Shown piece by piece: positions 18,693-43,892 of a stretch of DNA of 64,000 bases. Location: the NCBI RefSeq assembly GCF_000513195.1, contig NZ_CBVI010000014.1, forward strand, positions 1 to 64,000. Reading direction: 5' to 3'. Source of the DNA: Bacteroides timonensis. Its GTDB lineage: Bacteria; Bacteroidota; Bacteroidia; Bacteroidales; Bacteroidaceae. The translations under genes were made by a program, and so were the position numbers. Below the pieces are notes generated by a model. That model did not search any database, had not been told where the DNA came from, and saw only the letters and a program-made list of their open reading frames with translations. Each line of letters opens with the position of its first letter. Positions within the stretch are counted from its first letter, which is position 1.

Positions 18693-21458
18693 CTATAAAT
18701 TCTTCCGTTTTAAGAAATCCGTCGGACTTTCACCGAATTGTTCCTTATAACACTTCGTGAAATAAGACGGAGAAGAGAAACCGACTTCATAAGCAATTTC
18801 CGCAACCGTCATTTCTGAAGAAGCCAACAGGGAAATTGCTTTTTTAAGGCGTGCCTGGCGCAGCAATTCATTGGGAGCATAGTTAGTGAGTGATTTCAGT
18901 TTACGGTAGAGTTGCACGCGGCTCAGTCCCATATCTTTGCCTAAGTCTTCCACATTCAGTTCCGGATCTCTCATTTTCTCTTCCACAAGAGCCTTGAAGC
19001 GGGAAACAAAATCCTTATCCATATCGCTGATATTCTCTTTCGCCAACGTCTGGTTATCACCAAAAAACTGTCGAAGCTGACGACGGGAATCTATCAGATT
19101 ACGGATACGGGACAAGAGCAATTGCGAATTGAAAGGCTTGGAGATATAAGAGTCCGCACCTCCATTGTATCCCTGGATGCGTTGCTCATCAAGCGAACAG
19201 GCAGTGAGAAGGATGACAGGGATATGGCAAGTCTGCAATTCCGTTTTCAGACGGCGGCAACACTCCACACCATCCATACCGGGCATCATTACATCGGAAA
19301 TAATCACATCGGGGACGTACTTCATGGCAAGGCGTATGCCTGTAGCCGCTTCCGGTGCATCCAGTACATGATATTCTTCGGCGAGCAGCGTCTTTACATA
19401 ATGACGGATATCGGCATTATCATCAATAACCAATACTGTGGGACGTCCCGTTGCTCCTGCCTCCTCTTCATCAGCCGATAACTCGCTTTCTACTAACGTA
19501 GCGGAAACTTCCGTCTCTTCGGCAGGCAGCGTCACCACGGTAGGATGATATTGGGAAATGCTCTGAGCCGGAAGAAGGACGGCAAATGTCGTTCCCTTCT
19601 CATCACTCTGAGCAGTAATTTGCCCGCCATGCATCTCCACAAAGGCGCGTACAAGAGCCAGTCCAATGCCTGTGCCCGCCTGATGACCATCTATCTGATA
19701 GAAACGCTCAAAGATGGCATCCACTTCTTGGGAAGAAACGTAGCTGCCGGAGTTGAAGACGGAGAAGCGAAGGCTCGCGACATCGGCTTGCAGGCTCACG
19801 ACTATCTTTCCATTCTCAGGGGTATACTTCACGGCATTAGACAACAGATTGAAGTAGATGCGCTCCATCTTCTCGCAGTCCGCCATGATGCGGAAATCCG
19901 CATCGGGCATGGCTTCGAAGGAAAAAGAGATATGCTTTTTCAGGAGAGCCATGCGGAAGGAATCGTTCCAGCTACGGAAATTGCTCAACAGGTCGAAAGG
20001 CTCCAGATGAAGTTCCATGCGCCCGTTCTCTACTTTGCGGAAATCGAGAATTTGATTGACGAGACGAAGAAGGATATTAACGTTCTTCTTCATCAGTTCC
20101 AATAACTGACGGGAATGTTCCCCGAGGGATTTATCAGCAAGAAGCTGGTTTATGGGGTCAGCAATCAGAGTCAGCGGAGTACGGAAATCATGAGAAACAT
20201 TGGTAAAGAACACCAGCTTGGCGTGAGTGGCTGCTTCCAATTCATGGGAAAGTTGTTCCAACTGCTCCTTTTGCTGGATAAGTTGCTCCTTCTGTTGCGT
20301 CAACTGTTGCTTCTGCGCTTCCAGTATCTCCTTCTGGCGGGAAAGTTCCCGGTTCAGACGGTTCTTAGTGCGCAACGAAAGATAAACGGCAACCAATAGA
20401 CCGACAACCAGCAGGAGCACTAACAGACTACCAAACAGCACTACCTGTTGCGTGGCGTAACGGTCAAGATAATGATTCATCTTTCCGTTTAGCGTCTCTA
20501 TTTTTCCGTCAAGGGTGGCAATATGCGTGGTCTGCATCTGCATAATCTGGGCATTGGTACTGTCCACAACAGAGGTATTTAATATCGTTTCGCGCGGGAA
20601 ATCACGTTTATTCAGAATGTCCATTGCTATCTGTATCACCCGGTCGCCACCGGTGGGATAAATAAATGTGGCATCCAGTTCGCCTTTCAGCACCTGTTCC
20701 ACACCATATCCTTCGCCGGACAGGGCATCCGTACCAATGAAACGCATCTCTCCTGCCCTACCTTTCTGTCGGACAACAGCATAAGCGCCTGCAGCCATCC
20801 GGTCATTCTGCGCATACACCACATCTATCTGAGGGAAGTGCGTCAGCAGCGTATCCATCTTCTGTCCTGCCTCGGAACGTAACCATCCGGCATCTTCGCG
20901 AGCCAGAAGCTTGATGCCGGGGTAAGGGGAAATGGCAGAGACAAAGCCCTGATGGCGGTCCATCGCCGGCGTGGAACCGGTCAGACCAGATATCTCCACT
21001 ACATTGCCTTGTCCGTGAAGCATATTAGCCACATAATGCCCGATGGCTTTTCCTAATTCATAATTGTCAGCACCGATATAAGCGGTGTATTTATCGGAAA
21101 GTATCTTGCGGTCGAAGACAATGACAGGGATGCCGCGGTCGTATGCTTCTTCCACTACCGGGGTGATGGGGGCGGCTTCGTTGGGGGCAATGACCAGTAA
21201 GTCCACGCCTTCCTCGATGAAATTGCGGATGTCCTCTATCTGACGGGCATTATCATCCTTCACGGTGCGGATGTCGATTTCCACTTCATCATAGAAGAGT
21301 GCTTCGCGCAACATCTCGTTATTCATCTGGTGGCGCCACTCATCGTCGCTGCACTGGGATACCCCGATACGGAAACGAGGTTCATGCCGGGCGCACGAAG
21401 CTGCCAGTCCGAAGAGGGAAAGTAAAGTTAGCAACAAGTAAACATTGTATCTTCTCAT
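18693..21458 (-). CDS. Hybrid two-component system regulator with sugar-binding periplasmic sensor
   Basis: 921 residues. Order of parts: signal peptide (to about 22), type I periplasmic sugar-binding domain (about 28-310; FRIGVSQCSDDEWR, VDLLVIAPNEAAP, GIPVIVFDRK, YIGADNYELG, DVVYAQNDRMA, FIGTDALSG), membrane helix (about 345-368), coiled coil rich in QQKEQL heptads, HisKA with His in TNVSHDFRTPLTL, HATPase (NAVKYTPENG, GTGIGLALVRA), receiver (VLVIDDN ... IISDVMMPGMDG with phosphoacceptor Asp) and AraC-type HTH (IAYEVGFSSPSYFTKCYKEQFG). This is the architecture of BT1754 of B. thetaiotaomicron, which binds fructose and controls its fructan locus. A fructan locus lies 9 kb away here, so the same role is inferred. 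It starts 34 bp after the patatin gene. Confidence 0.9.
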   Translation of the reverse strand: MRRYNVYLLLTLLSLFGLAASCARHEPRFRIGVSQCSDDEWRHQMNNEMLREALFYDEVEIDIRTVKDDNARQIEDIRNFIEEGVDLLVIAPNEAAPITPVVEEAYDRGIPVIVFDRKILSDKYTAYIGADNYELGKAIGHYVANMLHGQGNVVEISGLTGSTPAMDRHQGFVSAISPYPGIKLLAREDAGWLRSEAGQKMDTLLTHFPQIDVVYAQNDRMAAGAYAVVRQKGRAGEMRFIGTDALSGEGYGVEQVLKGELDATFIYPTGGDRVIQIAMDILNKRDFPRETILNTSVVDSTNAQIMQMQTTHIATLDGKIETLNGKMNHYLDRYATQQVVLFGSLLVLLLVVGLLVAVYLSLRTKNRLNRELSRQKEILEAQKQQLTQQKEQLIQQKEQLEQLSHELEAATHAKLVFFTNVSHDFRTPLTLIADPINQLLADKSLGEHSRQLLELMKKNVNILLRLVNQILDFRKVENGRMELHLEPFDLLSNFRSWNDSFRMALLKKHISFSFEAMPDADFRIMADCEKMERIYFNLLSNAVKYTPENGKIVVSLQADVASLRFSVFNSGSYVSSQEVDAIFERFYQIDGHQAGTGIGLALVRAFVEMHGGQITAQSDEKGTTFAVLLPAQSISQYHPTVVTLPAEETEVSATLVESELSADEEEAGATGRPTVLVIDDNADIRHYVKTLLAEEYHVLDAPEAATGIRLAMKYVPDVIISDVMMPGMDGVECCRRLKTELQTCHIPVILLTACSLDEQRIQGYNGGADSYISKPFNSQLLLSRIRNLIDSRRQLRQFFGDNQTLAKENISDMDKDFVSRFKALVEEKMRDPELNVEDLGKDMGLSRVQLYRKLKSLTNYAPNELLRQARLKKAISLLASSEMTVAEIAYEVGFSSPSYFTKCYKEQFGESPTDFLKRKNL

Positions 21459-21492
21459 TGTCTTTTCGGTTGTTTTAAGTATCATAGAGAAA

Positions 21493-22335
21493 TCAGAAAC
21501 TCAGTCCTTTTTCACGACCGTGATTATAGACGTCTTCCAATCCATTGCCTGCAATGGTATAGAAATCGCCTCCCATCTCTTTCAAATCATGGTCAGGCTT
21601 TATAAAGCGGATGGTGGAGTCATTAATCCGGGCAGGAATTTCTTCTTCTGAGAAGAGATCAAAAGTCACTTTTTCTTTTTCTGTGCAGATGCAGATTATC
21701 TCTTTGTATCCCAATTCAGAAAGAGGAACAACGGGACAAATGGAAGTGTAACTACCGTCTACGTACGGTTTATTATTGATAAATGCGGGAATGTTCCAAG
21801 CATGAAGCATGCGGGTGGTGGCATAGGCCACTTCATCCAGGTTTTCTTTGGTCAGTAGCTCAGTCCGCTCATCAGAATGGGTATCGAACATCTGCAATTC
21901 GAGATTCTGGTTTTTCCATTCCGGTTTATGACGCAGGGCGTTTATCAGCAGCATTTGTCCCAGCCGCCTAGCTCCGTCCGATTGGGTGACTTGGGCAGCT
22001 TCTTCTGTTTTCACAAAACTGGTTGCCACCAACAGGCGGGCGGCTTGCGGGTTCCACAGATTGTTTTTAATCTCTGTCGATAGCCGTTGAATAGATTGCA
22101 GCATGGCACCGCTTTGGTTACCTTCGGCCTGGCTCGTTGCATATCCGTCGCTCCACAAGGAAAGGTCCAGTGCACTCACTTTATTAAATGCTGCAAAGAC
22201 TGCTATCAAAACGGAAGAGGAACAGGATGCATACGCTTTCGCCCTTATTCCTTTCTCCTCAAAAGCTCTCAGAACGCCATGAGTGAACACATTCTTATAT
22301 CCACCCGACATACAACAAATAGCGATATCATCCAT
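21493..22335 (-). CDS. Patatin-like protein with degenerate active site
   Basis: 280 residues, no signal peptide. The fold is recognisable from SGGYKNVFTHGVLRAFEEKGI (oxyanion loop and first helix) and the ATTRMLHAWNIPAFINNKPYVDGSY block. However, the nucleophile elbow normally written GxSxG reads ASCSSS, and the DGG/DGA catalytic Asp motif reads VDGSY. Lipid acyl hydrolase activity is therefore doubtful; the protein may have lost activity or use a changed elbow. The start at 22335 was chosen because a -7 box (22365-22358) precludes the longer frame. It is the first gene of a possible patatin - hybrid regulator - PfkB run. Confidence 0.65.
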   Translation of the reverse strand: MDDIAICCMSGGYKNVFTHGVLRAFEEKGIRAKAYASCSSSVLIAVFAAFNKVSALDLSLWSDGYATSQAEGNQSGAMLQSIQRLSTEIKNNLWNPQAARLLVATSFVKTEEAAQVTQSDGARRLGQMLLINALRHKPEWKNQNLELQMFDTHSDERTELLTKENLDEVAYATTRMLHAWNIPAFINNKPYVDGSYTSICPVVPLSELGYKEIICICTEKEKVTFDLFSEEEIPARINDSTIRFIKPDHDLKEMGGDFYTIAGNGLEDVYNHGREKGLSF

Positions 22336-22357
22336 ATTTTTTAGGGTATTAGTATCG

Positions 22358-22365
22358 CAAATATA
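22358..22365 (-). promoter_or_regulatory. -7 box of the patatin / regulator run
   Basis: Minus strand 22365-22358 reads TATATTTG, an exact -7 match 23-30 bp before the start codon at 22335. The position of the -33 box falls inside the palindrome at 22371-22395. Confidence 0.65.
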
Positions 22366-22370
22366 AAAAT

Positions 22371-22423
22371 AAATTGCACTATAACAGTGCAATTTATTGA
22401 ATATTCTGCACTATGACAGTGCA
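22371..22423. promoter_or_regulatory. Two tandem palindromes, operator or terminator
   Basis: Palindrome 1: AAATTGCACT (22371-22380), 5-base centre ATAAC, AGTGCAATTT (22386-22395). Palindrome 2: TGCACT (22407-22412), ATGAC, AGTGCA (22418-22423). They share the core TGCACTATRACAGTGCA and their centres are 32 bp apart, about three helical turns. They lie between the end of the GH36 gene and the -7 box of the patatin gene. On the minus strand palindrome 1 is followed by a T-rich stretch, so it could also act as the GH36 terminator. Confidence 0.7.
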
Positions 22424-22461
22424 AATCAAGATAATGAAAGAAAAACTTCGTCAGCCGCCTA

Positions 22462-24651: not shown

Positions 24652-24692
24652 GGTGTACAATGAATTTAGTTACAAAAATATATTAAATTAAT

Positions 24693-26978
24693 TTAGAATG
24701 AAAGGCTTGCACTGAATTCCAGTGTAAATGGACGCAAGTAATTACCACTCATATAGTGATCTTTGAATTTACCTGCTTCTTCCTTGCCCAGTAGTTCGGC
24801 ACCGCTGATAGTTCCGCTTGCACCCTTTTGATTCAGGAAGTTCACTACCGTTGCACCTAATGAGAGATGCTTATTCACTTTCCAGTTCATACCACCGAAG
24901 GTTTCCCAACGACCGTTGAAATAGAGGGCATTAGTCAGATTGGCATACGTCTTCCCGAAATAACGGAAACTGAGCCACAAGCGCAGATCGGGAGTTATGT
25001 TATAACTGGGATCTATTTCAGCCAATATCTGCGGAATTTCCTTCACAATGTTGCCGTTAGCATTCAGGTCGGGCACTCCTTCAAAGGGAGATTTGATGAA
25101 GTAGTTGTTATAAGTCGGCTTCTGGTAAGTGAACAGGGCATGCAGATGGAAACCTTTGAAAGGATTGATTTCAGCGGAAGTGGTCCAACCCAATGTCTTG
25201 ATATCGTAAATCAGCAAGGTCGTTTTGGACTGCGTTGTTCCCGGTTTGGTTACATTCTGCTGGTCTATATTATTCGACTTGGAAATATAAGTAATCATGG
25301 AAGTCAGGTTTATCCAGTCATTCTGATAAAATAATCCGCCACGCAGCAAAGGGATAGTCACACGCTTATATTGCTCTTCGGTAGGTCCTGTTCCGGCATA
25401 TTCATTGATACGCGGGAAGCGGGTGGCGACAGTTCCGTCGGCAGTCAGTCCGAAGTTCTTGGTCAACTTATAAGTGAATTGTGCCGTTGCAGCATAGTTC
25501 AGCTTATCTTTTACTACTTTATGCGGCTGTATATTTTCAGTAGAAAGTATATTCCCTTGATTGTCCGTATATTCGTGAGTATCACCAATGTGGAAGCCGG
25601 AATAGCGACCGTAAGGAATCTGATCGGCAGACATACGATAATATTCCAGACGGGCACCATAATAGACAGTGAATTTCGGACTTACCTGCCAGTTATCCGT
25701 AAAGTAGGCAGCCAGTTTGTTTTCGGTCCCTTTGGTATATTCCGGACTCAGCTCATTGAAACCACTGAATTTAGCGGTACCCCCGTCAGCTGCCACACGA
25801 TTCAGTATCTGCGGATATTCAGCAACCGTGCCTACCCATTGAAAAGAAGAAGAGTGATAATCCAAATGATAAAACCATTCATTCAGCCCCAGGCGTACGT
25901 CATGGTCGCCTATCTTCTTTTTCAGTTCGGAAGTAAGCAATGCGTTCTTCACTTTGCCAAGATGCAACCAGGTACGCCTGCCTTCGACCAATCCGCTATA
26001 GGCATCCTCCGAACCATCCTGAAAAAGGCCGTCCGCCACCGTGGCTTTGCTGATGTTGCTACCACCAAAGTCCACATAGTTAGCTTCGGGAGCATTCATA
26101 AACTTGGCATTCAGCGTCCAGTTCAGATTGTTACGGAAGGTATAATCAAACAGCATAGCCACTTCATGCGCCTTATTGCCTGTGAAGTCACCAAACCGAC
26201 CGCTCTTCATCTTTCCGTCCATCACATCCATGTATTGAAAACGTCCACCTTCGGGGGCATACGAAGAAGTTCCTAACTTGAAGCCAGGAATTTCTTTCAC
26301 ACTGCCATCTCCCACATAGATAAACGGAGCAGCGTTAATCATCGAACCCAGTGCGCTGCTTTTTGAGAACTTATAGATCACGGAGAACCTTCCGCGATTA
26401 TTGTTGAAAAGGCGCGTCAGCCCTGCATGATAAAGTTGGGTACGGTCACTGAAGTTTTCAAACTTAGGAGAGAAGCTACCCGGATCGAAGTTCTGATAGA
26501 TGCTAGCCGTATAGAGCCAGTGGTTTCCGATGCCACCGGACACATTCATGTCTATATTTTGCCATCCAAAATGGTTGGTGCGGTAATTCAAGACTCCTTT
26601 GAACTCCTTTTGCCCCAATTTGGAGAAAGAATTTACGGAATAAGCGATGTTTCCGGTAGCAATAGCAGATTCAGACGGTGTCATCAGCCCTACTTCGCCC
26701 AGGCTGGCATCGCTGCGCCAGTGAGTAGCCAGCTTATGCACAGCCGAAGAATAGACAGCGGGTAACCCGTTTTCATACACATTTACATCTTCACTGGGAA
26801 GTCCGATCTGAATTTCACGGGGCTTGTTTGCATCCGAAGCATTCAGCATCACATTGCGTTCGCTGACCTCCGTTTTTTTACTACTGATAGTGTCATTCTC
26901 TACCGGTTTGCTCGCCGTTGCAATAGTAGCGAATGATAAGGCTGCCGATATGACATAAGAAAAGAGACTTGCTTTCAT
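24693..26978 (-). CDS. TonB-dependent outer-membrane receptor (not SusC-type)
   Basis: 761 residues. Signal peptide MKASLFSYVISAALSFATIATA, plug region (SDANKPREIQIGLPSEDVN ... ENGLPAVY), then a long beta-barrel with alternating strands and a terminal aromatic (FTLEFSASLSF). It lacks the N-terminal carboxypeptidase-regulatory-like domain of SusC proteins and has no SusD partner, so it resembles stand-alone oligosaccharide or cofactor receptors. The short periplasmic N-terminus shows no clear TonB box. The GH36 gene follows it, suggesting uptake of alpha-galactosides. The start was set at 26978 for the signal peptide; the upstream in-frame extension lacks one. Confidence 0.8.
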   Translation of the reverse strand: MKASLFSYVISAALSFATIATASKPVENDTISSKKTEVSERNVMLNASDANKPREIQIGLPSEDVNVYENGLPAVYSSAVHKLATHWRSDASLGEVGLMTPSESAIATGNIAYSVNSFSKLGQKEFKGVLNYRTNHFGWQNIDMNVSGGIGNHWLYTASIYQNFDPGSFSPKFENFSDRTQLYHAGLTRLFNNNRGRFSVIYKFSKSSALGSMINAAPFIYVGDGSVKEIPGFKLGTSSYAPEGGRFQYMDVMDGKMKSGRFGDFTGNKAHEVAMLFDYTFRNNLNWTLNAKFMNAPEANYVDFGGSNISKATVADGLFQDGSEDAYSGLVEGRRTWLHLGKVKNALLTSELKKKIGDHDVRLGLNEWFYHLDYHSSSFQWVGTVAEYPQILNRVAADGGTAKFSGFNELSPEYTKGTENKLAAYFTDNWQVSPKFTVYYGARLEYYRMSADQIPYGRYSGFHIGDTHEYTDNQGNILSTENIQPHKVVKDKLNYAATAQFTYKLTKNFGLTADGTVATRFPRINEYAGTGPTEEQYKRVTIPLLRGGLFYQNDWINLTSMITYISKSNNIDQQNVTKPGTTQSKTTLLIYDIKTLGWTTSAEINPFKGFHLHALFTYQKPTYNNYFIKSPFEGVPDLNANGNIVKEIPQILAEIDPSYNITPDLRLWLSFRYFGKTYANLTNALYFNGRWETFGGMNWKVNKHLSLGATVVNFLNQKGASGTISGAELLGKEEAGKFKDHYMSGNYLRPFTLEFSASLSF

Positions 26979-27055
26979 ACTATTAATGAATTTAAAATTA
27001 AACTTTCGGTTCAAGGCATCAGATAGGAAATATTCCCCTTATCTTTCAACGAGGG

Positions 27056-28982: not shown

Positions 28983-30413
28983 ATGAAAAATCTATTCTAT
29001 TTTATCATTTCGATATGCACGTTATATGCATGTTCCTCGGATTCTGATTTCAACCCGGAAGATGAAAATCCCACTTCTTCTGATTTTTATGAACTTAAAG
29101 CCATTCCTGACAAGAAAGTCATTTTCAAAGCCTATCCGGCAAATATGAAACAAATTCTTGGCGCAGGCTACGATGTTACCGCCGACCACTTAAGTCCCGA
29201 AGCCATAAAAGCTCCCATAATAGATTTGGAAAAATTGGAAAACAGCGATGAAGATTATATCTATCGTATGAGAGCCACTTCATCCGAACCCAGAGACTAC
29301 GCCGGAGAAAATGCAACAACATTCCTGACTGATATTACCAATAGCCTGGTATTGGGAGACATAAATTCCAGAAATGCTCTATCGGTCGGTACCATTCTCA
29401 AGCATAAAGAGTTCGAGTCTGATTACAACCATTCTTCACAATATTCTTTTGCCTCCAGCGAACAACTATTTACAGCGGAGCGTTGGTACTTTTCGTTTTT
29501 TTATACCTTAGAGAAATATAAATACAGATACCTTACGCAGGAATTTGAAAATGATGTAACTAGTTTGGCAGCAGAAGATATCATAAACAAATATGGCACA
29601 CACCTTTTAGTGGATGTCGGTATAGGAGCACGATTCAGAGGACTTTACCGGACAGCAGTACCTACAGCGACATCAGCTGCCAGCACCGCAAAAATCACCT
29701 TACTCAGCGCTTTGGAAAAAATAGGCCAACAAGGTCTATTTACCGGAAGCGGTGCCGGCGGATGGGAAGAAGAAGTGGCACAAAGCATAGGAGGTCAGCT
29801 TATACTAGAATTCTATGGAGGAAATACAAGCTTATTGACTTCACAGCCGATAACCGATGGCTTTAATGCCTGGTGGAACTCGTTCAATGAAGAGAATTAT
29901 ACTTTGACGAAAATCACTCAAAACAAAGTCCTTCCTATTTATGAACTAATAACGGATGCCACCAAAAAAGAGCAAGTGAAAGATGCGATAGAAAAATATA
30001 TATCCAACCAAAAGTTATCGTCAGTTTCTACCACTCCGCTACTTCAGGCCTGGAATGGCAAAAATCACACATACGACACATCTTACTTAGATATTGCAAT
30101 GCACTCCAACAAAAAATATGAAGGAGCTATCTGTTCCATCTACAAACAACAAATCATGAGTACCGTACCGTTGTATTTATATAGTAACGGAAAAAAGCAA
30201 CGTCTATCTGTAGAGCTATTGCCAGCCAATACTGGATGGCAACTGGAAAAAGAATTAGGATATGTACACGCTTCGCCCGTAGAAGGAGCCATCCCGCTAT
30301 ACGAAGCCGAAAATGAGAACGATTATTGTTATACTACAGAAGACAAGCAGGAATATGGCACAGAAGGAAGTTGGAAGCAAAAAGGCATTGTATGTTACAC
30401 AATGCCCCTATAA
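28983..30413 (+). CDS. MACPF (membrane attack complex/perforin) domain lipoprotein
   Basis: 476 residues. Lipoprotein signal (LYACSS, Cys near residue 17). The MACPF signature YGTHLLVDVGIGARFRGLYRT is at about residue 203, with the upstream helical clusters and beta-rich segments expected of the family (region about 90-345). The C-terminal 110 residues contain two copies of a short motif of the PLY-x-YTT type (TTPLLQAWNGKNHTYDT and GAIPLYEAENENDYCYTTED), reminiscent of a DUF5648-like binding domain. MACPF proteins of Bacteroides include the BSAP antimicrobial toxins that kill related strains. Monocistronic with its own promoter. That it is a toxin is inference; housekeeping roles exist for other members. 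Confidence 0.85.
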   Translation: MKNLFYFIISICTLYACSSDSDFNPEDENPTSSDFYELKAIPDKKVIFKAYPANMKQILGAGYDVTADHLSPEAIKAPIIDLEKLENSDEDYIYRMRATSSEPRDYAGENATTFLTDITNSLVLGDINSRNALSVGTILKHKEFESDYNHSSQYSFASSEQLFTAERWYFSFFYTLEKYKYRYLTQEFENDVTSLAAEDIINKYGTHLLVDVGIGARFRGLYRTAVPTATSAASTAKITLLSALEKIGQQGLFTGSGAGGWEEEVAQSIGGQLILEFYGGNTSLLTSQPITDGFNAWWNSFNEENYTLTKITQNKVLPIYELITDATKKEQVKDAIEKYISNQKLSSVSTTPLLQAWNGKNHTYDTSYLDIAMHSNKKYEGAICSIYKQQIMSTVPLYLYSNGKKQRLSVELLPANTGWQLEKELGYVHASPVEGAIPLYEAENENDYCYTTEDKQEYGTEGSWKQKGIVCYTMPL

Positions 30414-31503: not shown

Positions 31504-32664
31504 TTATTTCTTTATCTTCAAAGTATAGTACAGCAAATAAAGTACTCCGACAGTCATCACGGCTACTGCACCGCTTTGTCCTACGGCATCACTTGCCAAT
31601 CCCATTGCCAACGGAAAAACAGTTCCACCAAAAAGTCCCATTATCATCAGACCGGAAACTTCATTCTTCTTGCCGGGCATATACAGCAACGCCTGCGAGA
31701 AGACAATCGAAAAGATATTCGAGTTTCCGTAACCTATCAGCGCAATGCAAATATAAATAGATGTTTTTGAATGGAAAGCAAAAAGTCCAATCATTGCCAG
31801 TAACATCATAAAACTACTGATAGCAAAGAACGATTTAGCATTCATCTTCCTCAAAATAAAAGAACCTGTGAAGCAACCTGCCGTACGGAAAATGAAGTAG
31901 AGACTGGTAGCAAACGCAGCGTCATCCAATCCCATACCCAAACGCTCCATTAGAATCTTAGGAGCAGTAGTATTCGTACCTACATCGATTCCTACATGGC
32001 ACATGATACCGATGAAAGAAAGCAAAACAAACGGCTTACCCAATAAAGCCAAACACTCACCGAACGTAGAAGGTTTTCCTTCCTCTTTCTCCTCGGCAAT
32101 CTGTGTCTGTCCCAACAATAAAACGGCTATCACGGCTATCACCATATAAATAGGGAACAGCACACGCCAACCCAAACCGAACGACGGAATGGCCTGTGTA
32201 GCTCCCCACATAGCAATGTAAGGTGCAAGAAACGAAGCAATCGCCTTTACAAATTGTCCGAAGGTAAGGCTACTTGCCAGCCGGTCACCTCTCACGATGT
32301 TAGAAAGCAGCGGATTCAGTGAAGTCTGCATCAATGCATTGCCGATACCTAATAAAGAGAAAGAAAGCAGCATTAACGTATAGCTATCACCAAAAACAGG
32401 CAATAACAATGAAGCAAAGGTCACAACCAAACTAAGTAGTACCGTCTTTTTTTGTCCGATACGGCTCATCAACATACCTGTCGGCACAGAGAAGATCAGG
32501 AACCAGAAGAAAACCAGCGAGGGGAAGATGTTAGCCTGAGAATCAGTCAGACCCAAATCTGCTTTTACATAGTTAGAGGCGATGCCTACCAGATCCACAA
32601 ATCCCATAGCGAAAAAGCAGAGCATCACAGGGATCAGCTTGGATAACGAAGAATTAGATTTCAT
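31504..32664 (-). CDS. Sugar MFS importer, FucP/GluP (FHS) family
   Basis: 386 residues, about 12 membrane helices. It has the FHS-type MFS N-terminus (PVMLCFFAMGFVDLVGIASNYVKADLGLTDSQANIFPSLVFFWFLIFSVPTGMLMSRIGQKK) with the R-x-G-x-K-K loop between helices 2 and 3. In the inner membrane it should import fructose or short fructo-oligosaccharides released in the periplasm by GH32, matching BT1758. It is transcribed from a promoter that shares the fructan-locus element (32694-32777) and is followed by the fructokinase. Confidence 0.85.
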   Translation of the reverse strand: MKSNSSLSKLIPVMLCFFAMGFVDLVGIASNYVKADLGLTDSQANIFPSLVFFWFLIFSVPTGMLMSRIGQKKTVLLSLVVTFASLLLPVFGDSYTLMLLSFSLLGIGNALMQTSLNPLLSNIVRGDRLASSLTFGQFVKAIASFLAPYIAMWGATQAIPSFGLGWRVLFPIYMVIAVIAVLLLGQTQIAEEKEEGKPSTFGECLALLGKPFVLLSFIGIMCHVGIDVGTNTTAPKILMERLGMGLDDAAFATSLYFIFRTAGCFTGSFILRKMNAKSFFAISSFMMLLAMIGLFAFHSKTSIYICIALIGYGNSNIFSIVFSQALLYMPGKKNEVSGLMIMGLFGGTVFPLAMGLASDAVGQSGAVAVMTVGVLYLLYYTLKIKK

Positions 32665-32693
32665 TGTTGTATGGTATTAATTTAAGTATTTCT

Positions 32694-32777
32694 TGCTCGG
32701 GAAAGCATGTTGCAAAGGAAGCGAATATCAAGGCAACAGGATAACAATCTTGTTACAAAGAGTGGCAATTATGATAC
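32694..32777 (-). promoter_or_regulatory. Regulated promoter of the importer-fructokinase operon
   Basis: Minus strand: GTATCATAATTGCCA begins at 32777; TTCCTTTG ends with G at 32713 (a -7 box with T for A at position 2), 64 bp away. The initial transcribed region carries TGCTTTCCCGAGCA (32707-32694). The same three parts at the same 64-bp spacing occur at the GH32 promoter, and the first two at the susC promoter. Likely target of the hybrid regulator. Confidence 0.75.
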
Positions 32778-32825
32778 AAGAATGTTTTTTAAGCGCATTT
32801 CAAGGGCATTATTTCTCTTTTTAGC

Positions 32826-32833
32826 TACATTTG
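32826..32833 (+). promoter_or_regulatory. -7 box of the epimerase-like gene
   Basis: TACATTTG, exact match, 37-44 bp before the ATG at 32870. It overlaps the longer open frame's TTG at 32831, which supports the downstream start. Confidence 0.6.
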
Positions 32834-32869
32834 TGGAAAATTATCCAAAGAAACTTTTTAAACAACAAT

Positions 32870-33742
32870 ATGGAAACACTCTTTAATGGACGACTCAGCA
32901 TTGAAGTCTCTGCACATGGGGCAGAGTTATGCAGCATTTTTTCTAATGGAAAAGAATATCTATGGCAGGCAGATCCTGCATTCTGGAAACGCCATTCGCC
33001 GGTACTCTTCCCGATTGTAGGAAGCGTATGGGAGAATGAATATCGAAACGAAGGCACCGCTTATGTCCTCACTCAGCATGGATTTGCCCGCGACATGGAG
33101 TTCACACTGATATCCGAGGAAAACGATGAAGTCCGCTACCAGCTTGTCAGCAACGAAGAAACACTCAAGAAATATCCTTTCCCATTCCGTCTCACCATCG
33201 GCTATCGCATCCGCGAGAAGAAGGTCGATGTCATGTGGGAAGTAGAGAATACCGGGGAGAAGGAAATGCACTTCCAGATTGGTGCACATCCGGCATTCTA
33301 CTATCCGGATTTCGATGCCGAAACGCAAGAACGGGGATTTTTCGGTTTCAATAAGAAAAGCGGACTGAAATACATACTTATTTCTGAAAAAGGATGTGCC
33401 GACCCGGACACCCAATATCCTCTGAAACTGACAAACGACTTGTTGCCATTGGATACACATACATTTGACAAAGATGCACTTATATTGGAGGGAAGCCAGG
33501 TGCAGCGGGTTACCCTATATAACAAGGAAAAATCCCCTTATCTCAGCCTCCATTTCGACGCACCTGTTGTCGGACTGTGGTCGCCACCTGCCAAGAATGC
33601 TCCGTTTGTCTGTATTGAACCATGGTACGGTCGTTGCGACAAAGCACATTATACAGGAGAGTATAAAGATAAGGATTGGGTACAGCATCTGCAACCCGAA
33701 GAGATATTCAGGGGGAAATATACGATAGAAATAGAAGAATAA
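32870..33742 (+). CDS. Aldose 1-epimerase family protein (LacX-like)
   Basis: 290 residues, cytoplasmic. A galactose-mutarotase-like beta-sandwich: SAHGAELCSIFSNGKEYLWQADPAFWKRHSPVLFPIVG, the LTQHGFARDMEF segment, and the His-containing FQIGAHPAFYYPD that holds a catalytic-type His. Family members interconvert sugar anomers or act on hexose-6-phosphates. It is encoded inside the fructan locus but on the opposite strand to its neighbours, from its own unregulated-looking promoter, so a link to fructan metabolism is only positional. Ends in a convergent intergenic repeat. Confidence 0.82.
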   Translation: METLFNGRLSIEVSAHGAELCSIFSNGKEYLWQADPAFWKRHSPVLFPIVGSVWENEYRNEGTAYVLTQHGFARDMEFTLISEENDEVRYQLVSNEETLKKYPFPFRLTIGYRIREKKVDVMWEVENTGEKEMHFQIGAHPAFYYPDFDAETQERGFFGFNKKSGLKYILISEKGCADPDTQYPLKLTNDLLPLDTHTFDKDALILEGSQVQRVTLYNKEKSPYLSLHFDAPVVGLWSPPAKNAPFVCIEPWYGRCDKAHYTGEYKDKDWVQHLQPEEIFRGKYTIEIEE

Positions 33743-33780
33743 AGGAGAAACAGAACAATTTCTTGTTCTTCCCCGGACCC

Positions 33781-33880
33781 GGTCCGTATCAAAGCCGTAC
33801 CCGGTCCGTATCTGGTCCAAACGCTTAGGTACGGAGCAGCTACGGAGCGGGTACGGCTTTGATACGGACCAGGTACAGAA
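33781..33880. repeat. 22-bp-periodic repeat with 22-bp inverted arms
   Basis: GGTCCGTATC occurs at 33781 and 33803 (22 bp apart); GGTACRG occurs at 33828, 33850 and 33872 (22 bp apart). The outer segments 33781-33802 and 33849-33870 are perfect inverted repeats of 22 bp around a 46-base loop. The block lies between convergent genes and probably also ends both transcripts. Confidence 0.88.
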
Positions 33881-33902
33881 AAGGAGGAAATATAGACCAA
33901 TC

Positions 33903-35705
33903 TTATTTCAAGTTATAAACCTTGAATGAACTTACCGCATAGCTACCGCCTTTGGCATAGAAGCTGATACGGTTGTAAGGTTCCGAAGGAAACACGAGGT
34001 TCGTCATTGCGAAACGTCCGTCATCGCCAAACGCTTCAATACTTGATTTATCAACGAAAAGACGCAGCGTCATTTCCGAATTGCCTTCTATCGGAGCAAG
34101 AGTCAGCACCGGAAAGTCCGGACTGAATGATACGATTCCGCTCTTACTACGATCCATCGCAAACTTCTTCTCTACCAGATTATAGTAAATATCCACTTCT
34201 TCTCCTTTTGAATTGAAAAGTTGGAAGCCAATGACTTCTGCATTTCTGTTCTTAATCGTCATTTCAATTTCATACGTACCTGTATTATCCGAAAGCAGTT
34301 TGTCCATATTATAAGTACGGTCCACCTTGAAGGAATGCTTCTTTTCTTCTTTTCCACGCAGTTTCAGCAGTTCTCGCGAAGGGGAAGATTTCAGATAGGT
34401 TTCACCCGCCGAAGTATAGAGGCTCAGGTCACGGGGAACGGAATTTGCACTACGATATTGCATGGTAGGCACATCATTGGCATACTGCCAGTTGCTCATC
34501 CATGCCAATGCGATATGTCGTCCTTCAGGTGCATTACTCCAGGTTACAGCAGCATAATGATCTTTTCCCCAGTCCATCCATTTCGTCATTTTCGGAGATT
34601 CATTTACGAATGTTTTTCCGTCAAACATTCCTACAAAGTACTGGGCAGCACTACCACCGAAAGGTCCCCCCGGATTAATATTACATATCAATACCCATTT
34701 TTTCAGTTCCGTGCCTTCAACAGGTAGCTCTATCAGGTCAGGACATTCCCAAACGCCTCCATGAGCTCCCTGTCCTTCACCGAAACTACTTTCATAAGCC
34801 CAATCCTTGAGGTTGGGAGAAGAATAAATCTGCATTTCCTGCCCTACCGCAAGAATCATAATCCATTTGTCAGTAGTATCATGCCAGAATACTTTCGGAT
34901 CGCGAAAGTCTCGCTGTGTAGAAGTCAGAATCGGATTACGCGCATACTTTTTGAAAGTTTTTCCATTATCAAGGCTATAAGCCATACTCTGTACCTGGCG
35001 GTCACTTGCCGAAGTATAGAAAGCAACAATGGCACCGGCACCAAACCCAGCCGTATTATCTTTATCCACTACACAAGAGCCACTGAATATAGTTCCTAAA
35101 GCATCAGGTGCAATAGCTGCCGGCTGATGTTCCCAAGAAACGAGATCAGTACTGGTTGCATGTCCCCAGTGAAGATTTCCCCACATAGAACCGTAAGGAT
35201 TGTATTGATAGAATAAATGGTAAACTCCATCTTTATATACCATACCATTCGGATCGTTCATCCAACCATACCTGGGAGAGAAATGATACACCGGGCGGAA
35301 TACTTCCCGATTAGATGTATCGAATTCATCAGAAAGCTTCATTTCATCCCAGCAAACAGCCGTATCAGAAATTAACTGGAAGTTAAAGGAAAGTGATTTA
35401 TCATCAAATCCGGAGAGATCTACCGGAACAAAATAATCTACCTTATTTATAGCCAGACGAATGTTCATATAGCGCACTACGTCATTATCTGCTATCATAT
35501 ACAGTTTTGCTTCCGGAGAAGCCTCTTCCACGGGAAGCAACAGAAATTTCTTCTGTTTCTCAATCTGGACAATGCTCTGTCCGTCACCTAAATGTTTAAT
35601 CACGAAAGGAGGATTAATAGCCTGACACGAAAAGACAGACCAGATTGTACCTATTATAAAGGTAAGGGTCCATCGCACAGTCAACAAATTGTTTTTTAAA
35701 TTCAT
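33903..35705 (-). CDS. GH32 fructosidase with DUF4980 N-terminal domain
   Basis: 600 residues. Signal peptide with a possible lipobox ending FSC (Cys about 27, the -2 position is atypical). Residues about 30-135 match the DUF4980 domain often found before GH32 in Bacteroides. The five-bladed propeller carries the nucleophile in WMNDPNG, the transition-state motif FRDPKVF and the acid/base in WECPD; a C-terminal beta-sandwich follows. It releases fructose from fructans, most likely as an exo enzyme in the periplasm (BT1759/BT1765-like). It is divergent from susC with a shared regulated intergenic region. Confidence 0.92.
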   Translation of the reverse strand: MNLKNNLLTVRWTLTFIIGTIWSVFSCQAINPPFVIKHLGDGQSIVQIEKQKKFLLLPVEEASPEAKLYMIADNDVVRYMNIRLAINKVDYFVPVDLSGFDDKSLSFNFQLISDTAVCWDEMKLSDEFDTSNREVFRPVYHFSPRYGWMNDPNGMVYKDGVYHLFYQYNPYGSMWGNLHWGHATSTDLVSWEHQPAAIAPDALGTIFSGSCVVDKDNTAGFGAGAIVAFYTSASDRQVQSMAYSLDNGKTFKKYARNPILTSTQRDFRDPKVFWHDTTDKWIMILAVGQEMQIYSSPNLKDWAYESSFGEGQGAHGGVWECPDLIELPVEGTELKKWVLICNINPGGPFGGSAAQYFVGMFDGKTFVNESPKMTKWMDWGKDHYAAVTWSNAPEGRHIALAWMSNWQYANDVPTMQYRSANSVPRDLSLYTSAGETYLKSSPSRELLKLRGKEEKKHSFKVDRTYNMDKLLSDNTGTYEIEMTIKNRNAEVIGFQLFNSKGEEVDIYYNLVEKKFAMDRSKSGIVSFSPDFPVLTLAPIEGNSEMTLRLFVDKSSIEAFGDDGRFAMTNLVFPSEPYNRISFYAKGGSYAVSSFKVYNLK

Positions 35706-35741
35706 GATGTTTTTGGGTATTACATTTAATTAATAATGGGT

Positions 35742-35825
35742 TGCTCGGGAAAGCACTTTGCAAAGGAAGCGAATAAAACAGAAATAGCCTGCCATTTATG
35801 TTTCATAAGCTGGCAAATATGATAC
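35742..35825 (-). promoter_or_regulatory. Regulated promoter of the GH32 gene
   Basis: Minus strand: GTATCATATTTGCCA begins at 35825 and runs into CCAGCTTATGAAACATAAAT (35813-35794); TTCCTTTG ends with G at 35761, 64 bp from the first G. TGCTTTCCCGAGCA follows (35755-35742). The 35 bp at 35741-35775 are identical to 32693-32727 at 33 positions. Confidence 0.8.
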
Positions 35826-35839
35826 CTGCCCTCTATTTT

Positions 35840-35932
35840 GTTACAAATATACCAGCTTATGAAACATAAATTACAGCATATCTTCACTTAATTCCCTTTC
35901 TTTGCAACATCAAAACATCACTCGGGAAAGCA
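35840..35932 (+). promoter_or_regulatory. Regulated promoter of the susC operon
   Basis: GTTACAAATATA begins at 35840 and runs into CCAGCTTATGAAACATAAAT (35852-35871), the same 20 bp and the same offset of 12 as at the GH32 promoter. TTTCTTTG ends with G at 35904, exactly 64 bp downstream. CTCGGGAAAGCA (35921-35932) follows in the leader, in the opposite orientation to the other two promoters. The leader to the ATG is about 85 nucleotides. Confidence 0.8.
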
Positions 35933-35995
35933 TGTTTTGAGAGGTAATCCACAGCGATTACAAAATGAAAAGCATATTAATTAAAATCTAAAAAC

Positions 35996-38900
35996 ATGGA
36001 AGGCATAAAAAGATCACTTCTATTTGCACTCTTTCTTATAATGTGTACACTGGTTCAGGCCCAACGTCTGACGGTACAAGGAAAAGTGGTTTCCAAGACT
36101 GACGGAGAATCCATTATCGGTGCAACTGTCATAGAAACCAACCAGACAAGTAACGGCACCATAACCGACATCGACGGCAACTTTACATTGTCTGTACCAC
36201 AAGGTGCAGAACTCTCCATTTCGTATATCGGATTCAAGACTGTGAATGTGAAAGCTCAAGCTACACTGAATATCGTTCTGGAAGAAGAATCGGAATTGCT
36301 ACAGGAAGTCGTAGTCACAGGTTATACTACTCAACGCAAGGCCGACCTGACCGGAGCCATTTCCGTAGTCAGCATAGACGAGATTGCCAAGCAAAACGAA
36401 AACAACCCGATCAAAGCATTACAGGGACGCGTCCCCGGTATGAACATCACAGCCGACGGTAATCCCAGTGGAAACGCCACTGTACGCATTCGCGGTGTCG
36501 GGACTTTGAACAATAATGATCCTCTTTATATTATTGACGGCGTGCCTACCAAATCGGGCATGCACGAACTGAACGGCAATGATATCGAATCTATCCAGGT
36601 ATTGAAGGATGCGGCTTCTGCCTCTATCTATGGTTCGCGCGCTGCAAACGGTGTCATCATCATCACTACGAAGAAAGGTAAAGAAGGACAGATAAAGATT
36701 AACTTCGATGCTTCTATCGCCGCTTCCATGTATACCAATAAGATGGAAGTACTGAATGCGGAAGAATATGGCCGTGCCATGTGGCAGGCTTACGTAAACG
36801 AAGGTCAGGATCCTAACACCAATGCACTGGGCTATAAGTATAGCTGGGGATATGACGCAAACGGTTATCCTCAACTGAACAACATCAGCATGTCCAAGTA
36901 TCTGGATTCCGCCAATACGGTTCCGGCTGCCGACACCGACTGGTTCGATGAAACAACCCGTACAGGTATTATCCAGCAGTACAATGTATCAGTAAGCAAT
37001 GGTTCGGAAAAGGGGTCTTCTTTCTTCTCCCTGGGCTATTATAAGAATATAGGTATCATCAAGGACAGTGACTTCGAACGTTTCTCTGCCCGCATAAATT
37101 CTGATTATAATCTGATTGGCAAATTCCTGACCATAGGAGAGCACTTCACACTGAACCGCACTTCGGAGGTGCAGGCACCGGGTGGATTCTTGCAAAATGT
37201 ATTGCAATTCAATCCCTCATTGCCCGTTTACGACATCAATGGAGAATATGCAGGTCCGGTAGGCGGATATCCCGACCGTGAGAACCCGGTAGCGAGACTG
37301 GACCGTAACTCTGATAATCGCTATACTTACTGGCGTATGTTTGGTGATGCCTACATCAACCTCAACCCCTTCAAAGGATTCAATGTCCGCTCCACCTTCG
37401 GATTGGATTATGCACAGAAATCACAACGCATCTTCACCTACCCCATCACCGAAGGCAATGTGGCAAATGATAAGAATGCCGTAGAAGCCAAGCAGGAACA
37501 CTGGACGAAATGGATGTGGAATGCCATCGCTACCTACAATCTGGAAATCGGCAAACATCGTGGAGACGCCATGGTGGGTATGGAGCTGAACCGTGAAGAT
37601 GATATCAATTTTTCGGGTTATAAAGAAGATTATTCCATACTGACACCCGACTATATGTGGCCGAATGCCGGTTCCGGTACGGCTCAGGCTTACGGTTCGG
37701 GCGAAGGCTATTCATTGGTTTCTTTCTTCGGAAAGCTGAATTATACATACGATGATAAATACCTACTCTCGATGACAGTACGCCGTGACGGTTCTTCACG
37801 CTTCGGTAAAAATAACCGCTATGCCACATTCCCTTCCTTCTCACTGGGATGGCGCTTGAACCGTGAAAAGTTCATGCAAAACCTCAGTTGGATTGACGAT
37901 CTGAAAGTCCGCGGTTCATGGGGGCAGACCGGTAACCAGGAAATCTCGAACATTGCCCGCTATACAATTTATGTTCCCAACTACGGTGTAACGGAATCAG
38001 GCGGTCAGAGCTATGGCACTTCCTACGACATTGCCGGAACCAATGGTGGCAGCATCCTTCAATCCGGATTCAAACGTAATCAGATCGGTAATGATAACAT
38101 TAAATGGGAAACAACCATACAAACGAACCTGGGCCTCGATTTCTCACTGTTTAAACAATCTCTTTACGGTTCATTCGACTGGTTCTACAAAAAGACAACG
38201 GATATTCTGGTACAGATGGCAGGTATCGCCGCTATGGGCGAAGGAAGCAGTCAATGGATCAATGCGGGAGAAATGAAGAATGTGGGTGTAGAATTGAATC
38301 TCGGTTATCGCAATCAAACGAGATTCGGACTAAAATATGACCTGAACGCCAACATATCCACCTACCGGAATGAAATCACGAAACTGCCAACTACAGTAGC
38401 TGCCAACGGCACTTTCGGTGGTAACGGTGTACAAAGCGTAATTGGTCACGCCAATGGTTCGCAGGTGGGTTATGTAGCTGACGGCATCTTCAAATCACAG
38501 GAAGAGATTGATAACCATGCCACTCAGGAAGGTGCCGGAATAGGCCGTATCCGCTGGCGCGACTTGGACGGCAACGGTATCATCAACGAGAAAGACCAGC
38601 AATGGATTTACAATCCGACTCCGGACTTCAGCTATGGTCTGAACATCTACCTTGAATACAAGAATTTTGACCTCACCATGTTCTGGCAAGGTGTTCAGGG
38701 AGTAGATGTTATCAGCGACCTGAAGAAGGAGACCGACCTTTGGAGTGGACTCAATATCGGTTTCCTAAACAAAGGTAAGCGAGTACTCGATGCATGGTCA
38801 CCCACCAATCCGCACTCTACCATTCCTGCATTGTCACGCAGCGATACGAACAATGAGAAACGTGTTTCCACTTACTTTGTTGAGAATGGTTCGTTCCTGA

Positions 38901-39103
38901 AGTTACGCAATATACAGTTGGGCTACAACGTTCCGAAAAACTTTGCCCAGAAGATGAAGATGGAACGCCTGCGCTTCTACCTGAGCGTACAGAACGTATT
39001 CACCATCAAGAGTAAGGAGTTCACCGGAGTAGATCCTGAGAATGCCAACTATGGTTACCCCATCCCGATGAATATAACTTTCGGTATTAATGTAGGCTTT
39101 TAA
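35996..39103 (+). CDS. SusC-like TonB-dependent fructan importer
   Basis: 1035 residues. Signal peptide (to VQAQ, about 22), carboxypeptidase-regulatory-like domain (about 24-105; VQGKVVSKTDGESIIGATV ... GTITDIDGNFTLSV), TonB-box-like LLQEVVVTGY, plug (about 115-225; RIRGVGTLNNNDPLYIIDGVP, SIYGSRAANGVIIITTKKG) and a 22-strand barrel with C-terminal Phe (ITFGINVGF). It imports oligosaccharides across the outer membrane using TonB energy and pairs with the SusD protein 18 bp downstream. Position and order match BT1763. First gene of a four-gene operon. Confidence 0.95.
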   Translation: MEGIKRSLLFALFLIMCTLVQAQRLTVQGKVVSKTDGESIIGATVIETNQTSNGTITDIDGNFTLSVPQGAELSISYIGFKTVNVKAQATLNIVLEEESELLQEVVVTGYTTQRKADLTGAISVVSIDEIAKQNENNPIKALQGRVPGMNITADGNPSGNATVRIRGVGTLNNNDPLYIIDGVPTKSGMHELNGNDIESIQVLKDAASASIYGSRAANGVIIITTKKGKEGQIKINFDASIAASMYTNKMEVLNAEEYGRAMWQAYVNEGQDPNTNALGYKYSWGYDANGYPQLNNISMSKYLDSANTVPAADTDWFDETTRTGIIQQYNVSVSNGSEKGSSFFSLGYYKNIGIIKDSDFERFSARINSDYNLIGKFLTIGEHFTLNRTSEVQAPGGFLQNVLQFNPSLPVYDINGEYAGPVGGYPDRENPVARLDRNSDNRYTYWRMFGDAYINLNPFKGFNVRSTFGLDYAQKSQRIFTYPITEGNVANDKNAVEAKQEHWTKWMWNAIATYNLEIGKHRGDAMVGMELNREDDINFSGYKEDYSILTPDYMWPNAGSGTAQAYGSGEGYSLVSFFGKLNYTYDDKYLLSMTVRRDGSSRFGKNNRYATFPSFSLGWRLNREKFMQNLSWIDDLKVRGSWGQTGNQEISNIARYTIYVPNYGVTESGGQSYGTSYDIAGTNGGSILQSGFKRNQIGNDNIKWETTIQTNLGLDFSLFKQSLYGSFDWFYKKTTDILVQMAGIAAMGEGSSQWINAGEMKNVGVELNLGYRNQTRFGLKYDLNANISTYRNEITKLPTTVAANGTFGGNGVQSVIGHANGSQVGYVADGIFKSQEEIDNHATQEGAGIGRIRWRDLDGNGIINEKDQQWIYNPTPDFSYGLNIYLEYKNFDLTMFWQGVQGVDVISDLKKETDLWSGLNIGFLNKGKRVLDAWSPTNPHSTIPALSRSDTNNEKRVSTYFVENGSFLKLRNIQLGYNVPKNFAQKMKMERLRFYLSVQNVFTIKSKEFTGVDPENANYGYPIPMNITFGINVGF

Positions 39104-42290: not shown

Positions 42291-43892
42291 ATGAAAACAA
42301 TGATATATTCACTCACACTGGCTGCTCTGATGATCACTTCTTTCAGCAGCTGTAGCGATGACAATGATCCGGTTTTAACTCAGAAGGACTGGGACGGAAC
42401 CACCACTTATTTTGCTTCGGCAGATGCCATGAAGTTTGATACTTACTACAAGCCATCTGTTGGTTATGTAGGCGATCCGATGCCTTTCTATGATCCACAG
42501 GCAAAAGATTTCAAGGTTATGTATCTACAGGAATACCGTCCGAACCAAGCAGGCACTTACCACCCGATATGGGCGGTAAGTACTCAGGACGCCGCTTCAT
42601 ACACATCTATGGGTGAGCTGATCTCTTGCGGAGGATTGTCGGAGCAGGATGCCGCTATCGGAACGGGTAGTACTATTTATAATCCTTCGGATCAATTGTA
42701 CTATACCTTCTATACAGGTAACAAATATCAGCCTACTTCTTCCGAGAACGGTCAGGTAGTGATGTACGCCACCTCAGCTGACTTCAAGACCTGGACCAAG
42801 AACCGCACTTTTTATCTGAAGGGTGACACTGACGGGTACAGCAAGAATGATTTCCGCGACCCCTTCGTTTTTGAAGGTGAAGACGGAAAATACCATATGC
42901 TTGTTTCCACTACTAAAAGCAGCAAAGGTGTACTGGCCGAATATACTTCTACCGATATGAAGACCTGGGAACATGCAGGTGTATTCATGACCATGATGTG
43001 GGATCGCTTTTATGAATGTCCCGATGTCTTCAAGATGGGAGACTGGTGGTATCTGGTCTACTCGGAGATGCATGCAGCCGTACGCAAAGTTCAATATTTC
43101 AAGGGACGTACACTGGAAGAACTGAAAGCAACCACCGCCAACGATGCCGGCATCTGGCCCGACAACCACGAAGGTTTCCTTGACTCACGTGGCTTCTATG
43201 CAGGCAAAACGGCTTCGGACGGAACTAACCGCTACATCTGGGGATGGTGTCCCACCCGCTCGGGCAATGACAATACTGCCGTAGGAGCTTCTCCGAACGA
43301 ACCGGAATGGGCAGGAAGCCTGGTTGCACATAAAGTAGTTCAGCATGCGGATGGTACTTTGACTTTAGGCTTAGTAGAAGGTATCAGCCAGAAATATGCC
43401 ACCGCCTCTACTGTAAAAGTGATGGAAAAGAGTAGCGGAGTATCAGAAAGCAACGGTAACTATACTCTGACGGATAATGCTTATATCCTATTCAATCGCT
43501 TAAATGTAAACAACAAGATTTCGTTTACCGTAAAGACGGCAGGCGATGCAGATAGATTCGGTATCTCTCTGGTACGCGGCACGGACTCCAAAAAGTATTA
43601 TACCATTATAGTGAACCCGGAAGACAACAATAACAAGCGAAAGATAAACTTCGAAGAAGAAGGTGAAGAAGGTAAAGGATTCATCGACGGAATAGACGGT
43701 TATCTGTTCGACAGACCTGCAGATAATACTTATAATGTAACTATCTGTACGGACAACTCTGTCTGCGTGGTTTATATCAATGACAATGTAGCTTATACAA
43801 ACCGCATATATGGTATGCAGAAGAATCCATGGTCTATTAATAGTTATTCGGGAACGGTGGAAGTAAGTACTGTGAAAGTTAACTATTACTGA
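42291..43892 (+). CDS. Surface GH32, probable endo-levanase type
   Basis: 533 residues. Lipobox SSC (Cys about 19). GH32 propeller: the nucleophile motif is YVGDPMPFYD rather than WMNDPNG, then FRDPFVF and YECPDVF (acid/base Glu), and a C-terminal sandwich (about 370-533). A lipid anchor and fourth position in the susC operon match BT1760, the surface endo-levanase that sets levan specificity in B. thetaiotaomicron. Substrate linkage (beta-2,6 or beta-2,1) cannot be read from this sequence. Starts 9 bp after the DUF4960 gene. Confidence 0.88.
   Translation: MKTMIYSLTLAALMITSFSSCSDDNDPVLTQKDWDGTTTYFASADAMKFDTYYKPSVGYVGDPMPFYDPQAKDFKVMYLQEYRPNQAGTYHPIWAVSTQDAASYTSMGELISCGGLSEQDAAIGTGSTIYNPSDQLYYTFYTGNKYQPTSSENGQVVMYATSADFKTWTKNRTFYLKGDTDGYSKNDFRDPFVFEGEDGKYHMLVSTTKSSKGVLAEYTSTDMKTWEHAGVFMTMMWDRFYECPDVFKMGDWWYLVYSEMHAAVRKVQYFKGRTLEELKATTANDAGIWPDNHEGFLDSRGFYAGKTASDGTNRYIWGWCPTRSGNDNTAVGASPNEPEWAGSLVAHKVVQHADGTLTLGLVEGISQKYATASTVKVMEKSSGVSESNGNYTLTDNAYILFNRLNVNNKISFTVKTAGDADRFGISLVRGTDSKKYYTIIVNPEDNNNKRKINFEEEGEEGKGFIDGIDGYLFDRPADNTYNVTICTDNSVCVVYINDNVAYTNRIYGMQKNPWSINSYSGTVEVSTVKVNYY

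Follow-up and report, generated by a model that had tools for sequence, protein, structure and literature searches.

A 64,000-nucleotide stretch of the 7.02 Mb genome of Bacteroides timonensis (assembly GCF_000513195.1, contig NZ_CBVI010000014.1, positions 1 to 64,000 of the forward strand; henceforth the window) carries a fructan locus, in which the promoters of an MFS importer, a GH32 glycoside hydrolase and a susC-type TonB-dependent receptor share an upstream direct repeat and a short element in the leader. Judging from the sequence and its conservation among relatives, the repeats are in all likelihood operators of a BT1754-type hybrid regulator spaced 65 bp from the -7 box, to which a covarying pair of leader elements has been added, with base-pairing in trans as our favoured reading of the latter. 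The operator is of a known kind; the leader pair is the new part.

The operator is one direct repeat of two 17-bp half-sites (TGWAACAwnTnTnnYAG) with a period of 21 bp, common to all three promoters (Table 1). When aligned, its half-sites read TTGTATCATAATTGCCACTCT and TTGTAACAAGATTG at the importer, AGGTATCATATTTGCCAGCTT and ATGAAACATAAATG at the GH32 gene, and TTGTTACAAATATACCAGCTT and ATGAAACATAAATT at susC, and in each case the last G of the TTTG in the -7 box lies 65 bp from the T that opens the repeat. A sequence-only reading of the window had singled out GTATCATAATTGCCA (from 32777, minus strand), GTATCATATTTGCCA (from 35825, minus strand) and GTTACAAATATACCA (from 35840, plus strand) as beginning 64 bp before the final G of the -7 boxes TTCCTTTG, TTCCTTTG and TTTCTTTG at 32713, 35761 and 35904. 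All are present and the distance is borne out, as are the 20 bp that it found common to the divergent promoters (CCAGCTTATGAAACATAAAT), of which the genome holds exactly two copies, at 35794-35813 on the minus strand and 35852-35871 on the plus strand. These shared elements are real; however, the 15-mer and the 20-mer are not separate entities, being overlapping parts of the single 21-bp-period repeat. A strict pattern, KGWWWCA-N14-TGWAACA-N{30,38}-TTTG, matches the genome six times and a reversed control not at all; five of the six matches have exactly N34, three of these being the importer, GH32 and susC promoters. Two more repeats of identical geometry in this genome, L217 (G000:C7:21726-21791) and L222 (G000:C102:16797-16862), have consensus -7 boxes (TATGTTTG and TATCTTTG, respectively), and the open reading frames downstream of them resemble, by eye, an esterase and an alpha/beta hydrolase.

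The same geometry recurs in related loci. Of 95 genomes of the genus that are at least 90% complete, 77 contain an importer match, and 74 importer regions were fetched, excluding that of the genome under study, a single partial match and all matches at or below 52% identity; to these were added 19 stretches reaching susC starts, five more stretches, and 80 GH32 loci, the best 80 of the matches listed from named genomes. Scanning these loci, 4.57 Mb with both strands counted, for a scored pair of half-sites yielded 294 sites, or 191 after removal of near-copies. The alignment with fructan-locus promoters of relatives that the sequence-only reading had proposed as a check finds the element conserved: of the 191 non-redundant repeats, 73 have a TTTG ending at offset 65, the runner-up being offset 50 with nine, and a control read backwards gave 30 non-redundant sites, none at offset 65 and four at offset 64. 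Likewise, a repeat period of 21 returned 164 non-redundant sites as against 11 to 42 for the other periods from 17 to 25. The 73 same-geometry promoters are less than 85% identical to each other; their columns above 0.3 bits lie mainly at offsets -1 to 39 and 52 to 67, and since the two halves share their informative columns (TG at 0-1/21-22, CA at 5-6/26-27, T at 11/32, A at 15/36 and G at 16/37), the element is to be described as a 17-bp direct repeat. It occurs upstream of the GH32, susC and importer genes of relatives, and this conserved geometry supports the earlier proposal of one activator site at a fixed distance in all three promoters. In the intergenic regions of L147, L201, L203 and L281, inverted repeats of about 100-150 bp are seemingly inserted between the divergent operators, leaving both promoters intact (by eye).

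As to the protein that reads these sites, the likely candidate is the BT1754-type fructose sensor already named by the sequence-only reading, which had placed its open reading frame at 18693-21458; the frame actually runs from 18693 to 21485 and encodes periplasmic sugar-binding, HisKA, HATPase, receiver and AraC helix-turn-helix domains. We infer its binding from co-occurrence: of 63 genomes that encode the regulator (at least 50% identity), 58 have an operator at offset 65, vs. two of 10 without it (Fisher 4e-6, uncorrected for ancestry). In 37 of the 40 genomes with the most similar importers, the regulator is on the same contig within 32 kb (tables read by eye), and in G056, G092 and G095 it is on a contig other than that of the importer. 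Published work, as far as the accessible text of each paper goes, points the same way: in B. thetaiotaomicron BT1754 is required for the response of a reporter with 300 bp from upstream of BT1763 (PMC9845299), and another strain's susCD pair with a 91% identical promoter gives no growth on inulin without BT1754 (PMC5967196). For the motifs of hybrid two-component systems (HTCS), direct repeats with a mean spacing of 21 bp between sites have been described (PMC3878776), and the operator fits HTCS_Fru, one of the 16 HTCS regulons reconstructed by Ravcheev et al. in 2013, in the parts of that paper open to us (PMC3878776). The likeness covers a fructose-sensing hybrid regulator (BT1754), fructan genes and a direct repeat with about 21 bp between halves; relative to that text, the present operators show in addition a half-site of 17 bp, an exact spacing from the -7 box and the leader element, the two systems being likened by description and not by letters. 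In a whole-genome search, the regulator orthologs of G031, G091 and G130 each showed one in-frame stop, reflecting decay or sequencing error.

The leader element, absent from the sequence-only reading, is a third shared sequence, CTCGGGAAAGCA, at 32696, 35744 and 35921: the genome contains three exact copies, one past each of the three -7 boxes, and they are direct repeats on the plus strand. All of them lie downstream of the -7 boxes. In the predicted GH32 and importer transcripts, GCUUUCCCGAGC begins at the 7th base past the G of the -7 box, and both messages are predicted to start at the element or beside it; in the susC leader the reverse complement of GCUUUCCCGAGC lies about 10 bp deeper. 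Among relatives with back-to-back GH32 and susC genes, the letters of the element change and the complementarity stays, in eight lineages altogether. For instance, in L201 and L213 GCUUUCCGG is complementary to CCGGAAAGC; in L278 GCUUUUGUUCUCCACA pairs with UGUGAGGGAUAAAAAGC with two mismatches and a bulge; and in L290, from a genome of another family, GCUUUUCCGUA is complementary to UACAGAAAAGC in 10 of 11 positions. In seven of the eight lineages the GH32 element begins at +7, L013 being the exception (L278 was detected via a pattern that included the +7 spacing; its relative L007 was not), and how far the susC copy lies from its -7 box varies among lineages. Near relatives show three substitutions in the element, at the importer of L143 and at the GH32 genes of L144 and of L146/L147, each of which would leave a G-U pair, and in L205, L206 and L208 an A opposite a C at the end of the duplex breaks one pair.

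None of 19 susC upstream stretches from otherwise arranged loci contains GGAAAGC or GCTTTCC, 17 having been scanned by script and two (L240 and L241) by eye. Two loci, L216 and L300, have a susC promoter with the repeat close to a GH32 gene and no element; they were excluded from the test described below because other sequence separates the two genes and the A is present in the -7 boxes of their susC promoters. Beyond the genus, GH32 matches at the order level occurred in 45 of 393 genomes, and a scan of the upstream stretches of 20 places added one new divergent pair with the element, L290. At the family level (102 of 399 genomes with GH32 matches), 30 loci and 20 further stretches held no new lineage with the element, and five genomes of the family of G318 gave no additional lineage. 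A literature search, with most subscription papers, preprints and supplements beyond its reach, returned no report of complementary leaders in this locus.

We compared the duplex energies of the true GH32-susC leader pairs with those of all re-pairings, taking one author-chosen representative per lineage. The true pairing of the eight lineages ranks 9 of 40,320 permutations; that of the five most different lineages ranks 1 of 120, and a first run with seven lineages had placed it at 9 of 5,040. Shifting the GH32 intervals by 15, 20 and 25 nt moved the rank to 8,648, 12,014 and 6,866 of 40,320. Mononucleotide shuffles reached the observed energy in 0-1 of 300 trials for L143, L165, L204, L201 and L213 and in four of 300 for L278 (L290 was not included). 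Within the L007 type, the GH32 leaders of L279 and L007 pair better with the susC leader of L278 than with their own.

A sigma-ABfr promoter is described, in the accessible text of PMC7366714, as having TAnnTTTG at -7 and TTTG at about -33; the three boxes of the window retain the TTTG part and have T at position 2, and no TTTG was seen by eye at offsets 33-42 of these promoters. The position expected of a -33 box falls near the end of the second half-site. The sequence-only reading was right that all three boxes lack the A at position 2; the absence is not, however, the expected mark of activator dependence that it took it for, as 44 of the 73 same-geometry promoters keep the A. It is missing from 20 of 20 promoters with the leader element vs. 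nine of 53 without, counting among the 20 L277 of G083, which is not at a fructan gene, and among the nine both L013 promoters, entered as lacking the element because their letters differ. Since the A is missing where the leader element is present and kept in most other promoters, the weak box is a trait of this subclass rather than a sign of this activator. In the susC promoters of L204, L205, L206, L208 and L209, TTTA replaces TTTG at the end of the -7 box with the operator distance unchanged.

From these leaders we tentatively propose, giving it somewhat less than an even chance, that the GH32 and importer mRNAs act, through their 5' ends, as antisense to the susC leader. Outer-membrane uptake and downstream breakdown would then be tuned against each other by pairing between mRNAs, no separate small RNA would take part, and the partners would have co-evolved in eight Bacteroidales lineages. 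A doubtful, though far from negligible, alternative is that a second transcription factor binds the leader element as DNA just past the starts of GH32, the importer and susC, the element covarying to fit one protein. In its favour, the three copies are direct repeats on the plus strand; the element goes with the A-less -7 box in every one of its promoters, which looks like a promoter-level property; the GH32 copy keeps a constant distance to its -7 box in all lineages save one; and G083 has the element with its partner absent. Yet the distance of the susC copy to its -7 box differs among lineages, the spacing of the two copies ranges from 177 to 328 bp with no helical phase, and in L278 and L290 the complementarity continues past mismatches and, in the former, a bulge, which suits RNA better than a single protein site. 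DNA looping between the two leader copies is likewise unsupported, given the same range of spacings and the want of a common phase. We also rejected a conserved hairpin presenting the susC element: a possible one around it (CAAAACAU...AUGUUUUG; Table 1) comes from a single-sequence fold, and RNAalifold on 11 susC leaders returned no consensus pairs.

The upstream repeat, for its part, might be read by another regulator, such as the Crp-type global regulator BT4338/Cur, which has been suggested to act on this locus too (accessible text of PMC11501099), and the divergent operators contain a partial palindrome, TTATGAAACATAA. We consider this improbable: that partial palindrome is lost in relatives, the presence of the repeat tracks the BT1754-type regulator, and the repeat does not match the Crp motif wwwTATGTTnTAnAACATAwww as published in the accessible text of PMC3878776, so that a Crp/Cur site was rejected. 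Still more improbable is that the shared sequence is a mere trace of recent promoter duplication, its distance under no functional constraint. The importer promoter resembles that of GH32 along most of its length, and 20 identical bp are shared by the divergent pair; nevertheless, duplication as the whole story is ruled out because the geometry is kept in 73 diverged non-redundant promoters and the susC leader element is a reverse complement, not a transcript-sense copy.

Several observations weigh against the combined reading of BT1754-type operators and paired leaders. On the side of the operator, 118 of the 191 repeats have no TTTG at 65 (the score also catches chance and opposite-strand matches); five of the 63 regulator genomes lack an offset-65 site in the fetched stretches, one of them, G074, having TTTG at 66; and the association between regulator and operator takes no account of shared ancestry. 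Two sites of the exact geometry, L217 and L222, precede non-fructan genes, and another hybrid regulator may use the same 65-bp layout. In BT1754 chromatin immunoprecipitation sequencing, the strongest region is the 3' part of the BT1754 gene itself; the accessible text of that study neither names nor excludes the present operators (PMC3404733). On the side of the leaders, the single-pair energies of L007 and L013 are weak, being matched by nine and 19 of 300 shuffles, respectively, and the hairpin at the susC element is not conserved. Further, the G083 promoter carrying the GH32-type element is not near a GH32, importer or susC gene, and a search of that genome for a partner gave six places, one the promoter itself and five with no evident leader context (by eye). 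This element without a partner speaks against pairing as a general rule.

Briefly, we advance the following mechanism for the favoured reading of operators with paired leaders. Periplasmic fructose would activate the regulator, as is usual for this family. The regulator would then bind the 21-bp repeat at its fixed distance, a step that the comparison among genomes supports, probably as a head-to-tail dimer, recruit RNA polymerase and activate the three promoters together. Given where the second half-site ends, activation may be of an adjacent, class-II-like kind, which would explain why the distance is constant to the base pair. The messages of GH32 and the importer would in turn base-pair with the susC leader in trans, potentially coupling uptake to use. 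In part, this recalls the FopS and GibS small RNAs of B. thetaiotaomicron, RNA 5' ends of which pair with susC-type messages; however, these are separate small RNAs that pair at the start codon (accessible text of PMC11697453), whereas here the partner would be an mRNA 5' end and the target a leader element tens of bases before the start codon. The DonS-type antisense RNAs of polysaccharide utilization loci (PUL) similarly offer a divergently encoded RNA beside susC, but DonS is cis-antisense (accessible text of PMC7366714), whereas the transcripts predicted here do not overlap and have only the short complementary element in common. The significance is twofold: (i) the operator supplies an exact rule for a membrane-bound hybrid regulator (half-sites of 17 bp, a period of 21 bp and a -7 box that ends at 65 bp), of use in regulon prediction and in building sugar-responsive switches in gut Bacteroides; (ii) the leader pair, if it acts at the RNA level, would be a native case of the messages of one pathway regulating each other, placed where uptake (susC) and use (GH32, importer and kinase) must match, and an unusual way of tying sugar uptake to breakdown.

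Table 1. Promoter elements and genes of the fructan locus in the window
Feature	Position	Strand	Remarks
Importer operator	32741..32778	-	half-sites 32762-32778, 32741-32757
Importer -7 box TTCCTTTG	32713..32720	-	last G 65 bp from first T of repeat
Importer leader element GCTTTCCCGAGC	32695..32706	-	starts 7 nt past last G of -7 box
GH32 operator	35789..35826	-	half-sites 35810-35826, 35789-35805
GH32 -7 box TTCCTTTG	35761..35768	-	
GH32 leader element GCTTTCCCGAGC	35743..35754	-	starts 7 nt past last G of -7 box
susC operator	35839..35876	+	half-sites 35839-35855, 35860-35876
susC -7 box TTTCTTTG	35897..35904	+	
susC leader element ACTCGGGAAAGC	35920..35931	+	reverse complement of GH32/importer element at 11/12 positions
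Possible hairpin CAAAACAU...AUGUUUUG around susC element	35911..35939	+	single-sequence fold only
BT1754-type hybrid regulator	18693..21485	-	likely reader of the operators
MFS importer gene	31504..32664	-	pfkB kinase behind importer
Aldose-epimerase gene	32870-33742	+	between importer and GH32
GH32 gene with DUF4980	33903..35705	-	
susC-type TonB-dependent receptor gene	35996..39103	+	divergent from GH32; followed by susD and BT1760-like GH32
BT1760-like GH32	42291-43892		downstream of susC and susD

Regarding the remainder of the locus, the importer has its own promoter because the aldose-epimerase gene separates it from GH32. A search of 32500-36200 against Rfam gave seven matches at E of 1 or less, none reaching the gathering score and all of them microRNA models on inverted repeats. 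Between the converging epimerase and GH32 genes, a long GC-rich inverted repeat (33786-33867) is possibly a two-way terminator. A protein with a MACPF domain match (28983-30413, plus strand) adjoins the fructan genes. A GH36 alpha-galactosidase-type gene and a TonB-receptor-type gene (21493-27014, minus strand) lie between the regulator and the importer, and in several relatives the regulator is merely 1-4 kb away from the importer.

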